Of a stretch of 64,000 nt of DNA, positions 1 through 3,725 are shown in pieces. The stretch covers positions 124,001 through 188,000 of the forward strand of contig NZ_NESJ01000003.1 in the NCBI RefSeq assembly GCF_003063645.1, in the 5' to 3' direction. Each line of letters opens with the position of its first letter. Within the stretch, counting starts at the first letter, position 1. Below the pieces are notes generated by a model. The model had not been told where the DNA came from and searched no databases. It was given only the letters and a program-made list of their open reading frames with translations. This DNA comes from Limnohabitans sp. 2KL-51. Its GTDB lineage: Bacteria > Pseudomonadota > Gammaproteobacteria > Burkholderiales > Burkholderiaceae_C. Both the position numbers and the translations under genes were made by a program.

Positions 1-720
1 TGGGTGCTCAACGGCACAAAGCACTTCATCAGCGATGGCGAGTGGAGCGACTTCTTTTTGGTCTCAGCCAAAACCGGTGAAAAAGAAATTTCGATGTTCA
101 TGGTGGACAAGGGCTTGGCCGGTTTCACCTTGGGCAAAGACCAAAAGATGATGGGCCTGCGCGGCACGCCGCATCTGGAACTGTTTTTTGACAATGTGCA
201 ACTCGAAGACGCTGCCTTGCTGGGCGAAGCGGGCCAAGGCTTCAAGCTGGCCATGGGCGCGCTCAATGTGGTGCGTCTGGCGCAAGTGGGCGCCCGCGCC
301 GTGGGCAAGGCCACGCATGTGTGCGAGTTGATGCTGAACTGGGCAAACGAACGCAAGCAGTTCGGCAGCAAGATCGGTGATTTTCAGATGGTGCAGCAGA
401 TGATCGCCGACAGCGTGATCGAGATCAATGCCGCCCGTTGGATGGTTTACCACGCCGCCTGGATGTTGGACCAAGGCATGGACGCACGCGAGCAAATCGC
501 CATGGTCAAAGTGCACGCGGCTGAGACCCTGGGTCGCGTGGTGGACCGTGCGGTGCAGGTGTTTGGCGGCATGGGCTTTTGCAAGGAGCTGTCCATCGAG
601 CGCTATTACCGCGATGCCCGTATTTACCGCATCTACGACGGCACCAGCGAGATCCATCGCGGCGTGATTGCCAAAAGTACGATGAAAAAAGGCGCCGTGC
701 TGTTTGATGTGCACCGCTGA
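1..720 (+). CDS. Acyl-CoA dehydrogenase, C-terminal part (5' end outside window)
   Basis: The open frame runs in from the window edge, so the N-terminal FAD/acyl-CoA dehydrogenase part is missing. The visible 239 residues begin in the middle beta domain (LNGTKHFIS) and continue into the four-helix C-terminal domain, with QVFGGMGF and the terminal YDGTSEIHR motif that contacts FAD and the substrate in this family. The enzyme should oxidise an acyl-CoA to the enoyl-CoA and pass electrons to ETF. The next gene is a CoA-transferase on the same strand, which fits acid activation followed by beta-oxidation, but two hairpins in a 363-base gap separate them. The substrate cannot be told. Confidence 0.93.
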   Translation, partial: WVLNGTKHFISDGEWSDFFLVSAKTGEKEISMFMVDKGLAGFTLGKDQKMMGLRGTPHLELFFDNVQLEDAALLGEAGQGFKLAMGALNVVRLAQVGARAVGKATHVCELMLNWANERKQFGSKIGDFQMVQQMIADSVIEINAARWMVYHAAWMLDQGMDAREQIAMVKVHAAETLGRVVDRAVQVFGGMGFCKELSIERYYRDARIYRIYDGTSEIHRGVIAKSTMKKGAVLFDVHR

Positions 721-754
721 GCTTTTGTTTGCTTGTGTTGTGCTCCTTTCGTGG

Positions 755-830
755 GCCGGATGAAGGGGATGGGCGGCCTCCTCATACTGGGGTACCAGAA
801 ATCGTCGTCCGCCCATCCCCTTCATCCGGC
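755..830. repeat. Long hairpin A (22-bp perfect arms)
   Basis: Perfect 22-bp inverted repeat: arm 755-776, arm 809-830, loop 777-808. It lies 34 bases past the acyl-CoA dehydrogenase stop and could act as an RNA stem at the 3' end of that transcript, although no T-run follows. Within the loop, the 24 bases at 780-803 are the exact reverse complement of 986-1009, the loop (with the innermost stem pairs) of the second hairpin downstream. Confidence 0.8.
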
Positions 831-843
831 TGTGGGTGCATCC

Positions 844-869
844 GTAGGTCGGAACTTCAGCTCCGACAT
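844..869. repeat. Short palindrome, GTAGGTCGG family
   Basis: A 26-base imperfect palindrome starting GTAGGTCGG and ending CCGACAT. Two related copies, inverted to one another, lie at 16031-16056 and 16073-16100 next to the lig operon. It looks like a dispersed intergenic repeat, distinct from the REP-like family elsewhere in the window. Confidence 0.55.
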
Positions 870-965
870 GGAATATTGAACGAACCACAACTCAGCAGTT
901 TTGCATGAACATGAGCCCTAACGCCAACGGATTTGATCTCTGTGCAAACCACCAGCCCATCGGGG

Positions 966-1027
966 GTGGCGTGGGGGCCGTGGCCGATTTCTGGTACCCC
1001 AGTATGAGGCCGCGGCCCCCACGCCAC
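966..1027. repeat. Long hairpin B, shares its loop with hairpin A
   Basis: Arms 966-985 and 1008-1027 pair over 20 positions with one G-T wobble at 981/1012. The stem is unrelated to that of hairpin A. The 24 bases at 986-1009, core CTGGTACCCCAGTATGA, are identical to the reverse complement of 780-803 in hairpin A. The 3' arm ends 56 bases before the CoA-transferase start, so it would sit in that gene's 5' leader. Confidence 0.75.
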
Positions 1028-1083
1028 ACCCGATGCAGCGCACCAACAATCTGCAAGCCAACAAGCCAAAAGAGACTCAAAAA

Positions 1084-2658
1084 ATGCAAACCAAATTCAT
1101 GACCGCAGCACAAGCGGCACAACTCATCCAAGACGGTGACACCGTGGGCCTCATGGGCGGTGGTGGTGGCCTGATGGAAGCCACCCATTTGTTTGAAGCG
1201 GTGCAAGAGCGCTTCCTGAGAACTCAAGCTCCGAAGAACCTCACCCTCATCCACGCACTGGGTATTGGCGACAAGAAAACCAAAGGCATGAGCTGCTTCG
1301 CGCACGAAGGCCTGGTCAAGCGCGTCATCGGCGGCCACTGGGTCTGGTCACCGGCCATGCAGCAACTGGCCCTGGCCAACAAGATTGAGGCCTACATCCT
1401 GCCCGCCGGCGTCTCAAGTCAGCTCATGCGCGAAATCGGCGCAGGCCGTCCCGGCCTCATCAGCCATGTGGGGCTGGGCACGGTGTGCGACCCGCGCCAT
1501 GGTGGGGGCCGCATGAACGATGCCGCCCAAGACGACTTGGCAGAAGTCATCACCATCGATGACCACGAATACCTGCGCTACAAGCCCTTCCCCATTCATG
1601 TGGCCATCGTGCGCGCCAGCAGCGCCGACGAAGACGGCAACATCAGCTTCGAACATGAAGCGGCCAACCTGGACGCCCAATCGCTGGCCTTGGCAGCGCG
1701 CAACAGCGGCGGCAAAGTCATCGTGCAGGTCAAGGAGCGCATGCCCAAGGGCACCCTCAAAGCCCGCGAAGTGCGCATCCCCTCGGCCTGGGTGGACGCC
1801 ATCGTGGTCGATCCGCAGCAGTCCACCAGCTACGACATCCCGTTTGATCCGGCTTTCAGTGGCGAGCTGACTGGCGCCGAACGCGCGGCCAGCGAGGCGC
1901 AAGACCACGCCCGTGAAGTGGCCGCCTCTCAAGAGGCCTTCAGCGAGCGCCAGGCCGTGGCGCGCCGTGCGTACCAGGAACTCTTCAACACCGACAAAAC
2001 CCGCCCGGTCATCAATTACGGTGTGGGCGTACCCGATGCGGTGGCCAAGTTGATCGCGGCGCGCAACGAACAACACCGCATCTATCAAACCATCGAGCAC
2101 GGCACCTATGGTGGCACGCTCATGGACGGCGTGCTGTTTGGTTACGCGCGTAACGCCACCGCCATGCTGGACGCCGCCACACAGTTCGACTTTTACGGCG
2201 GTGGCGGTCTGGACATCGCCTTTTTGGGCTTTGGCGAGTTCGACGAAGAAGGCTCGGTCAACGTGTCACGCTTGGGCGGCGTCACTGTCGGCCCCGGAGG
2301 CTTCATCGACATTGCACAGAACGCGAAGAAAGTGGTGTTCTGCGGCACGCTCGCTGCCAAGGGCGTGAAGCTTGAGACCGGCGATGGCCAGATGCACGTG
2401 GCCACACAAGGGGCTGTAAAAAAGCTGGTCAAACAAGTTGACCAGATCACCTTCTCCGGTCCGCAAGGTTTGGTGCGTAAACAAGAAGTGCTCTACCTCA
2501 CCGAGCGCGCCAGCTTCAAGCTCACACCCCAAGGCATCGAACTTTTCGAGATCGCCCCGGGCATCGACCTGCAGCGCGATGTGCTGGACCAGATGGACTT
2601 TACGCCTAGGTTAGCCCCAGACCTGAAGGTGATGGACAGCGCACACTTCAAAGCATGA
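1084..2658 (+). CDS. Acetate/propionate-type CoA-transferase (YdiF family)
   Basis: 524 residues, a single chain carrying both halves of a family I CoA-transferase. The N-terminal half has the glycine-rich GLMGGGGG loop (about residue 22). The C-terminal half has TIEHG, where Glu of about residue 338 is the expected nucleophile that forms the glutamyl-CoA thioester, and then FYGGGGLDIAFLGFGE. It should move CoA between short-chain acyl-CoAs and free acids. I chose ATG 1084 rather than the longer frame at 1033 because it follows a purine-rich AAAGAGACTC stretch and begins where family homology starts; the upstream extension is low-complexity. A terminator hairpin follows 20 bases after the stop. 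Confidence 0.92.
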   Translation: MQTKFMTAAQAAQLIQDGDTVGLMGGGGGLMEATHLFEAVQERFLRTQAPKNLTLIHALGIGDKKTKGMSCFAHEGLVKRVIGGHWVWSPAMQQLALANKIEAYILPAGVSSQLMREIGAGRPGLISHVGLGTVCDPRHGGGRMNDAAQDDLAEVITIDDHEYLRYKPFPIHVAIVRASSADEDGNISFEHEAANLDAQSLALAARNSGGKVIVQVKERMPKGTLKAREVRIPSAWVDAIVVDPQQSTSYDIPFDPAFSGELTGAERAASEAQDHAREVAASQEAFSERQAVARRAYQELFNTDKTRPVINYGVGVPDAVAKLIAARNEQHRIYQTIEHGTYGGTLMDGVLFGYARNATAMLDAATQFDFYGGGGLDIAFLGFGEFDEEGSVNVSRLGGVTVGPGGFIDIAQNAKKVVFCGTLAAKGVKLETGDGQMHVATQGAVKKLVKQVDQITFSGPQGLVRKQEVLYLTERASFKLTPQGIELFEIAPGIDLQRDVLDQMDFTPRLAPDLKVMDSAHFKA

Positions 2659-2676
2659 AGTTCAAATCTTCCCGGA

Positions 2677-2898
2677 TCAAGCCTGACGTCCGTCAGGCTT
2701 TTCCGTTTTCACCATCGTGATCACCCCAAACGGGCATCGCCGTTCGCATTGGCTGCACCCGGTGCAGCCCTGCTCATCGTGCAGCACCGCATGCTTGCGC
2801 CAAGCCACCACCTGCAAACTCAGCACCCCCGGCGGACAGGCCGCCACACACCAGCCGCAACCGGTGCAGCGGGACGTATGGATGTGGGGCAGCTTCAC
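2677..2898 (-). CDS. Small 2[4Fe-4S] dicluster ferredoxin
   Basis: 73 residues with two CxxCxxCxxxCP motifs: CTGCGWCVAACP (about residues 12-23) and CTGCSQCERRCP (about residues 46-57). Each is expected to bind a [4Fe-4S] cluster, so the protein is a small electron carrier. The GTG start overlaps the aroE stop codon in the form GTGA, giving a four-base overlap and likely translational coupling; a longer frame from 2958 would overlap aroE by 64 bases and is less likely. The last codons overlap the terminator hairpin of the convergent CoA-transferase gene. Its redox partner is not evident from the neighbours. Confidence 0.85.
   Translation of the reverse strand: MKLPHIHTSRCTGCGWCVAACPPGVLSLQVVAWRKHAVLHDEQGCTGCSQCERRCPFGVITMVKTEKPDGRQA
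2679..2709 (+). terminator. Rho-independent terminator after the CoA-transferase
   Basis: Inverted repeat AAGCCTGACG / CGTCAGGCTT (2679-2688 and 2691-2700) followed by TTCCGTTTT. It lies 20 bases after the CoA-transferase stop and overlaps the 3' end of the convergent ferredoxin gene. Confidence 0.8.
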
Positions 2899-3725
2899 AC
2901 CAACGGCACCGTCAACTGGGCAATCACCGCCGCTGTATCGGGCCGCACTCCACGCCACCAGGCAAAGGCCTCGGCCGCTTGTTCGGCCAGCATGCCCACG
3001 CCGTCAGCCAGGCGCGTCACGCCCGCTTGGTGGGCCAGCTTCAAAAACGGTGTGAGACCTTTGCCATAGGTCAGGTCATAGGCCAAGCACCCGGGCGCAA
3101 ACACGCTGGCTGGGAGCGGAGGCAGCTCGGCCGTGAGGCTGGAGGAGCTGGCGTTCAGCACCACATCAAAAGCGCCCTGCACGGCGTCGTAACCCAGACC
3201 CTGCACTGGCACCTGACCGGTTTGGTGCTGCTGCGCCAAGGCCGCCAGCTCCTGCGCCTTGGCCAAAGTACGGTTGACGATCACCAGCTCGGCCGGCTGC
3301 TCAGCCAACAGCGGCAGCAAGGCCCCGCGTGTGGCGCCACCCGCCCCCAAAATCAGCACGCGTCGCCCTTGCAGCGGACAGCTCAAGTTTTGTACCACAT
3401 CGCGCAGCAGGCCCACCCCGTCAAAGTTTTCGGCATACACCTTGTCGCCCTCAAACTTCATCGCATTCACGGCACCGGCCATTTGCGCGCTGGGGGCCAG
3501 GTCGGTGGCGTAGGCAAAAGCGTCGAGCTTGAAAGGCGCGGTCACGTTCATGCCCCGCCCACCCGAGGCCCGAAACGCGTCCACCGTGGCCGTAAATTCG
3601 CCCAAGGGGCCGAGCAACTTGCCGTAGTCAATGTCTTGCCCCGTGACCTGCGCAAAAGCGCTGTGGATCATGGGTGATTTGCTTTGCACAATGGGGTTGC
3701 CGATCACGGCGTAACGGTCTGTCAT
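2895..3725 (-). CDS. aroE: Shikimate dehydrogenase
   Basis: 276 residues, the usual AroE length. It reduces 3-dehydroshikimate to shikimate with NADPH in chorismate synthesis. Visible motifs are NPIVQSKSP (substrate-binding serines, about residues 10-18), NVTAPFK with the catalytic Lys of about residue 66, GAVNA, ENFDG with the catalytic Asp of about residue 102, and the Rossmann loop GAGGATRGAL. The stop codon overlaps the GTG start of a dicluster ferredoxin gene, so the two are probably co-translated, an uncommon partnership. The next gene upstream, at 3824, is divergent. Confidence 0.97.
   Translation of the reverse strand: MTDRYAVIGNPIVQSKSPMIHSAFAQVTGQDIDYGKLLGPLGEFTATVDAFRASGGRGMNVTAPFKLDAFAYATDLAPSAQMAGAVNAMKFEGDKVYAENFDGVGLLRDVVQNLSCPLQGRRVLILGAGGATRGALLPLLAEQPAELVIVNRTLAKAQELAALAQQHQTGQVPVQGLGYDAVQGAFDVVLNASSSSLTAELPPLPASVFAPGCLAYDLTYGKGLTPFLKLAHQAGVTRLADGVGMLAEQAAEAFAWWRGVRPDTAAVIAQLTVPLV

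Follow-up and report, generated by a model that had tools for sequence, protein, structure and literature searches.

The two hairpins A and B of the window (the whole stretch analyzed, 64,000 nt from Limnohabitans sp. 2KL-51) are members of a dispersed repeat family of the Comamonadaceae. Members of this family occur at scattered sites, have stems of fixed length whose arms covary, differ between their two strands and are arranged in inverted orientation, and a dispersed inverted-pair element is well supported. A literature search found no description of this element. Our leading reading, to which we give slightly less than an even chance, is that A and B form the two ends of a single copy of an interspersed, non-autonomous, REPIN-like element of the Comamonadaceae and that a trans-acting enzyme recognizes such ends as folded single strands. 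Each end is a hairpin of ~76 nt, composed of a stem of ~24 bp that is nearly free in sequence, a 2x2 step (often GA/GA), a CGATTT/(Y)ATGAG internal loop, and a small variable apical hairpin. The putative enzyme, supplied in trans, would read the folded CGATTT...ATGAG strand, which is the 3′-side hairpin of the unit on each strand, by helix length and internal loop and not by sequence; it would copy or move the HP1-spacer-HP2 unit, most probably in the form of single-stranded DNA, a route like that proposed for REPINs and IS200/IS605-type elements, and the intergenic location would reflect that insertion is tolerated there. We infer that the hairpins serve mobility and that they do so via single-stranded DNA rather than RNA.

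Hairpin A spans positions 755 to 830 (arms 755-780 and 805-830, 23 of 26 pairs Watson-Crick) and bears the wobble signature described below on the minus strand, which reads 5′-arm-CGATTT-CTGG-TACC-CCAG-TATGAG-arm-3′; the plus strand of its conserved 24-nt loop (781 to 804, minus) is CTCATA-CTGG-GGTA-CCAG-AAATCG. Hairpin B spans positions 959 to 1034 (arms 959-984 and 1009-1034, 24 of 26 pairs Watson-Crick) and has the signature on the plus strand, where its 24-nt loop (985 to 1008) reads CGATTT-CTGG-TACC-CCAG-TATGAG. The original prediction of 24-nt loops that are exact reverse complements on different stems was confirmed: positions 780-803 match 986-1009, the identity extends to 25 nt (780-804/985-1009), the stem sequences differ, and the predicted arms agree with ours save for 1 to 2 bases of loop overlap in B. 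Both loops contain a 4-bp helix, CTGG/CCAG, that can close a tetraloop, and the GGTACC center is present in the hairpins of the window. The RNA fold of 735-1060 had a z score of -9.3, and none of 100 shuffles was equally stable. No third match to the 17-nt loop core was found in the window at ≤3 mismatches; one of 100 shuffles had two or more such matches, and both real matches are exact. A covariance model built on 60 rows, A and B among them, scored A at 90.8 bits on the minus strand (832-753) versus 37.2 on the plus strand, and B at 86.3 bits on the plus strand (957-1036) versus 36.6 on the minus strand.

The feet of A and B are separated by a spacer of 128 nt (831 to 958, no strand), which contains a short GTAG-tagged palindrome, GTAGGTCGGAACTTCAGCTCCGACAT, identified from its sequence at positions 844 to 869 of the plus strand. 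We take this palindrome to be an ordinary GTAG-type REP, that is, a repeat separate from the hairpin family. Palindromes resembling it were seen by eye in several orthologous junctions. The REP-type assignment also leans on the portion of PMC3733652 that describes such tags. Upstream of the pair lies the C-terminal part of an acyl-CoA dehydrogenase gene (4 to 720, plus strand; Pfam PF00441, 9.9e-47), and downstream a CoA-transferase family gene (1084 to 2658, plus strand; Pfam PF01144, 3.3e-23), whose start codon is inferred and conserved across orthologous junctions.

The loop proved to be widespread and inverted pairs to recur, contrary to the original reservation that the loop might be found nowhere else or the two sites be absent or non-complementary in close relatives. 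A 21-nt loop word matched at least 118 stretches in genome_contigs, and record titles among the 80 matches listed named Limnohabitans, Rhodoferax, Polaromonas, Curvibacter, Comamonadaceae, or, more vaguely, Burkholderiales or beta-proteobacteria. At ≤2 mismatches, the loop was present in 50 of 60 genomes of the window's genus and in 23 of 299 genomes of the family (15 of 141 genera), with no match for a reversed-pattern control in either scan. The covariance model detected 18 hairpins at an E value of ≤0.001 in the window's genome and also matched genomes negative for the loop, namely, seven of nine in the genus (7, 10, 13, 7, 2, 1, and 1 matches, with zero in the other two) and two of 20 in the family (9 matches in one, 1 in another, and none in 18).

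Outside the Comamonadaceae, nothing convincing was found for the hairpin family. An order-wide pattern scan matched 10 of 399 genomes, and the nnGG/CCnn apex occurred in three of them, all within the family (G000, G087, and G114). The seven genomes with other apices, retrieved by the broad pattern, were set aside as chance matches: six are unpairable over four bases, and the remaining one, G128, pairs over four bases yet has no model match. The order-wide scan with the covariance model, run with strict filters and 15 candidates scored per genome so that weak copies can be missed, matched 4 of 300 genomes, all in the family, and the model had no match in four genomes from other families. Searches of viral_contigs with the exact loop pattern, of plasmids with hairpin A and its flanks, and of phages with hairpin B each gave 0 matches. 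The beta-proteobacterial repeat element BRE is mostly intergenic, about 90 bp long, and reported from Polaromonas and Rhodoferax, but it is described as tandem repeats (VNTR) that are well conserved in Bordetella and sometimes lie inside genes (PMC3110155). The hairpin family would differ from BRE in these respects, and the order-wide sample yielded no model match outside the Comamonadaceae.

Across many genomes, the stems vary while the loop is constant, as the original prediction had asked to be checked. Among 349 unique hairpins, a set that includes a few chance words from the broad pattern and was not selected for good pairing, pairing at positions 3-26 from the loop reached 71-95% versus the 32-68% expected from composition, and it dropped to 58% at position 27 and 44% at position 28. 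The 145 hairpins with <80% arm identity, a set with the same provision, gave the same pairing profile. Because pairing falls off after position 26, the unit measures about 26+24+26 nt, and this fixed stem length makes it unlikely that a core was inserted into different palindromes, as had been proposed. In an alignment of 60 chosen hairpins, each of the 24 stem pairs varied in both of its arms; 96.4% of the cells were paired versus 57.9% in shuffles, and the covariation score was 0.947 versus 0.190 in shuffles and 0.144-0.183 when slid, both the percentage and the score being raised to some extent by the choice of well-paired rows. These 60 rows were drawn from 73 hairpins with ≥17 Watson-Crick pairs and <70% arm identity, and all of them originate from a pattern fixing CTCATR and AAATCG. 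At the window's own locus, orthologous stems change in step when compared by eye, e.g., in L249, L256, L257, and L259. A subfamily represented by L017 and L113 has arms lengthened by GGGGTCAGATCAACATTAATTT, which results in stems of about 60 bp.

The kept part of the hairpin is the internal loop and not the apex. In 28 model matches with other apices, from 20 stretches hand-picked from the model-scan results, CGATT...ATGAG was kept in all 28 and CGATTT in 27, while the apices varied (e.g., GTGC...GCAC and GGCG...CGCC); the model favors the CGATT/ATGAG letters, so their retention is partly ascertainment, which the free apex is not. GGTACC, initially taken for the constant core, is thus replaced by other apices elsewhere while CGATT...ATGAG stays. 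A 50-row alignment, made of 27 of the 60 first-set rows and 23 of the 28 further hairpins (the five left out include the sole CGATTC copy, L370), scored 1.036 versus 0.209 for covariation over 26 pairs. The 2x2 step below the internal loop was GA/GA in 47 of 141 non-redundant hairpins and in 17 of the 28 further ones. The CGATTT/(Y)ATGAG loop can plausibly be drawn as C-G, tandem G.A/A.G, U.U, and U-A on the CGATTT strand, and may resemble the cores of k-turns or SECIS elements. On both sides of the loop, positions 27-49 carried <0.3 bit each, and the feet showed no GTAG/CGTC tag. Sixteen of the 141 hairpins were poorly paired and hairpin A of L252 is chimeric with mismatched lower arms, so the structure can be dispensed with after it is in place.

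Mismatches in the stems are distributed unequally between the strands. Read on the CTCAT strand, mismatch cells amounted to 186 A.C versus 30 G.T in 125 of the 141 non-redundant hairpins, with the 16 poorly paired ones excluded. As A.C on the CTCAT strand is G.T on the opposite one, it is the CGATTT...ATGAG strand that tolerates wobble. The 28 further hairpins (28 of 29 model matches, one overlapping reverse-strand match being dropped) yielded 42 wobble versus 8 A.C cells on the CGATTT strand, a count in which redundancy was kept and the RNA model mildly favors G.U. Selection acting on one folded strand is therefore well supported by two hairpin sets. Counts on unique, unclustered hairpins gave, for pairs flanked by same-direction genes, A.C:G.T ratios of 73:7 in the upstream member and 81:7 in the downstream one; other pairs gave 133:8 and singles 131:15. 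The wobble bias thus tracks the hairpin and not the direction of the neighboring gene, and in the common arrangement the CGATTT...ATGAG strand reads outward from the pair whatever that direction is. A cis-acting mRNA element was rejected because both members of same-direction pairs bear the same strand signature, and for the same reason a leader function is not indicated for the window's pair: the proposal that it frames the leader of the CoA-transferase gene holds only for its position between that gene and the acyl-CoA dehydrogenase gene. A terminator was likewise rejected, as the base composition of the flanks gave no sign of a 3′ T-run on either strand.

Inverted arrangement is the rule among close neighbors. 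We recorded 133 neighboring hairpins within 350 nt, 124 inverted (123 in one sense and 1 in the opposite) and 9 tandem, and the 123 spacers measured 19 to 259 nt foot to foot. A simple purpose-written gene caller classed 65 of 83 pairs, 53 between same-direction, 9 between convergent, and 3 between divergent genes, and left 17 unclassed and one inside a called gene; the 327 background intergenic gaps of ≥80 nt in the larger loci were distributed as 195, 52, and 80, respectively. This preference for same-direction neighbors, together with the wobble excess on one strand and the tandem G.A pairs that would be drawable in CGAUUU/YAUGAG on that strand only, favors the main rival of the mobile-element reading, in which the hairpins are structured RNAs acting in outward transcripts or neighboring mRNAs, e.g., as sites of protein binding or of RNase III type processing, and covariation reflects selection at the RNA level. 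Wobble tolerance would equally mark an RNA. However, in every same-direction pair one hairpin lies antisense to the two genes and still has the same signature, and one spacer, of 19 nt, leaves no room for divergent promoters, which would favor DNA over divergently transcribed RNA. RNA function is also opposed by the patchy occurrence of the family, by its dispersal in units, and by the results of Rfam on window positions 1-3000, where only sub-threshold look-alikes and no family at gathering score appeared (the best was a microRNA model at 32.1 bits versus a cutoff of 55.5). We consider a structured RNA unlikely.

The suggestion of a mobile element gained support in genome G064, where the pair recurs as a dispersed unit: 28 pairs align, with a loop spacing of 153-155 nt and a common central inverted repeat, and delimit a unit of about 235 bp that is longer in some copies. 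When one of these pairs was used with its flanks as a BLAST query, most paralogues matched only approximately query positions 483-725, the feet being at 493 and 722. Past the foot, 17 of the 56 outer flanks resemble the flank of another copy for up to about 45 nt, so some G064 copies are longer than foot to foot or were duplicated with their flank. The terminal arms are related to one another within G064 and variable across the whole family. Stretches from three genus genomes likewise contain recurring units of about 220 bp. A flanking 4-mer was shared in at most 3 of the 28 G064 pairs at any offset, and none of 8 to 9 nt was found; a 2-mer at the feet, common to 21 of the 28 at one offset, may either belong to the element or reflect a 2-bp duplication. 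L217:746-806, next to a hairpin pair, holds a second repeat, up to about 60 bp long, that has 24 other sites in G064 (81-91% identical). In two contigs of this genome, C10 and C19, a hairpin loop lies almost at the start (at base 19), as though the assembly had broken at the hairpins.

At 17 junctions orthologous to that of the window, defined by CoA-transferase N termini that are 84-100% identical, we found the pair in 7, one hairpin in 4, and none in 6 (gaps of 14-72 nt), and these junctions yielded no clean empty site for a single insertion. One of them, L255, retains a remnant of B's outer arm; loss thus occurs, and absence is no proof of later insertion. Single hairpins are common in the scanned genus genomes. 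In two copy-rich genomes, the plus and minus orientations are about equally frequent (30/31 and 9/9), and in several genus genomes they are uneven (e.g., 2/6, 2/7, and 4/2). Against a mobile element we counted these uneven orientations, the many singles in genus genomes, the copies longer than foot to foot, the loss seen in L255, the lack of a clean empty site, the poorly paired and chimeric hairpins, and the failure to find an enzyme in a search that covered the Y1_Tnp (PF01797) family. The more specific proposal that the element's end is addressed by shape alone, i.e., by a helix of measured length and free sequence plus the CGATTT/ATGAG loop with its tandem G.A pairs, on one strand, by a putative nuclease or transposase acting on inverted pairs, is possible but doubtful.

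The exact complementarity of the A and B loops had also led to the idea that they kiss as RNA in the CoA-transferase leader. If loops paired with each other, variable bases should agree between partners, and the A/G base of CTCATR does so in 95 of 107 pairs versus 71.1 in shuffles (0 of 1,000 as high), yet the variable tetraloop base agrees in 63 of 107 versus 55.9 (90 of 1,000 as high) and is thus unmatched beyond chance; these shuffles ignore genome relatedness and are weak either way. Within one genome, the tetraloop base agrees in 9 of 18 pairs. Moreover, a 4-bp apical helix is present within each loop, and single hairpins persist at the 4 orthologous junctions mentioned above, which makes kissing extremely unlikely.

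Several known systems resemble the hairpin family in part. MITEs such as NEMIS/Correia or ERIC are intergenic elements of 100-300 bp whose ends are conserved inverted sequences. The hairpin family shares their size, location, and inverted ends, but each of its ends folds into a separate hairpin whose sequence varies, and flanking duplications of ≥4 nt were not common among the 28 G064 pairs. IS200/IS605 ends and integron attC sites are recognized by shape as a folded single strand, one strand only. One folded strand also matters in the hairpin family; unlike in these systems, its ends are inverted, what is conserved is an internal loop near the top of the stem, and no linked Y1 transposase was seen at 18 loci. 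To our knowledge, small bacterial repeats are as a rule recognized by sequence, whereas this family combines a fixed-length helix nearly free in sequence with a small kept internal loop and a one-strand wobble signature. If our reading is confirmed, the REPIN/attC/IS200 group would gain an element addressed by structure, and a concrete bait for capturing its enzyme would be at hand.

The closest likeness is to REPINs and REP doublets (GTAG, CGTC), which are also small, intergenic inverted hairpin pairs with variable spacers. REPIN heterodimers with different stems have been described, and the REP stems tabulated in the cited part of that work measure 5-13 bp with a terminal GTAG/CGTC tag (PMC3733652). 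Unlike REPs, the hairpin family has a stem of ~24 bp that is nearly free in sequence, no tag seen at its feet, a kept internal loop, and no hairpin beside the Y1_Tnp loci examined. A strict REPIN moved by a resident RAYT (Y1_Tnp) would account for the inverted intergenic hairpin pairs and would fit the GTAG-type palindrome in the window's spacer. It also agrees with the presence of Y1_Tnp, mostly as one copy, in 24 of the 26 loop-bearing genomes searched (16 of 18 and 8 of 8), but Y1_Tnp was nearly as frequent in genomes with neither loop nor model match (16 of 19; 15 of 18 in the family and 1 of 1, G347, in the genus). Seven of eight loop-negative genus genomes also checked for Y1_Tnp had model matches. 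No loop copy at ≤7 mismatches, a search that divergent apices would escape, was found within about 1.5 kb of 18 Y1_Tnp loci. These results speak neither for nor against RAYT as the mobilizer, and a RAYT-driven REPIN in the strict sense appears improbable. We filed the hairpin family as a REPIN-like variant and not as a REPIN member because its tag and stem features, when tested, differed from those of REPs and no link to a RAYT emerged.

Rearrangements at the hairpins center on the loop. Six of the 16 truncated CTCATRCTGG words represent half hairpins stacked on complete ones (L302, L108, and L125), and all six breaks fall in the tetraloop, between CTGGNN and CGTTGAG, with differing left arms. 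At L030:5518-7405, genes for a BglII-type restriction endonuclease and a DNA methylase lie inside a hairpin of a pair; the right edge of this insert abuts CCAGAAATCG at the loop apex, and its left side is chimeric. The same junction in L080:2884-3120 has an uninterrupted hairpin and no restriction-modification genes; we read the genes flanking both pairs as parC and parE. L252 and L096 contain chimeric hairpins, with left and right arms apparently from two hairpins joined at the shared loop. SbcCD-like activity cuts hairpins, and the apex breaks are consistent with such an activity, or a dedicated enzyme, having cleaved DNA hairpins at their tip. These break points and the recombination of arms at the loop would also be expected of neutral palindromes in which template switching or gene conversion maintains the complementarity of the arms and which rearrange when cut, with no dedicated reader. 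Arm correction, however, predicts neither the fixed 24-bp stem nor the one-strand wobble bias and does not explain a kept CGATT/ATGAG with a free apex; we disfavor this explanation as highly improbable. An autonomous copy of the proposed mobile element, with a transposase between the hairpins, was discarded as a candidate, since the long intervals examined held the restriction-modification system (L030), a BrnA antitoxin gene (L038), or ordinary-looking chromosomal genes (L013 and L017). The BrnA antitoxin gene, at L038:3344-3706, is located between two hairpins about 1.1 kb apart.
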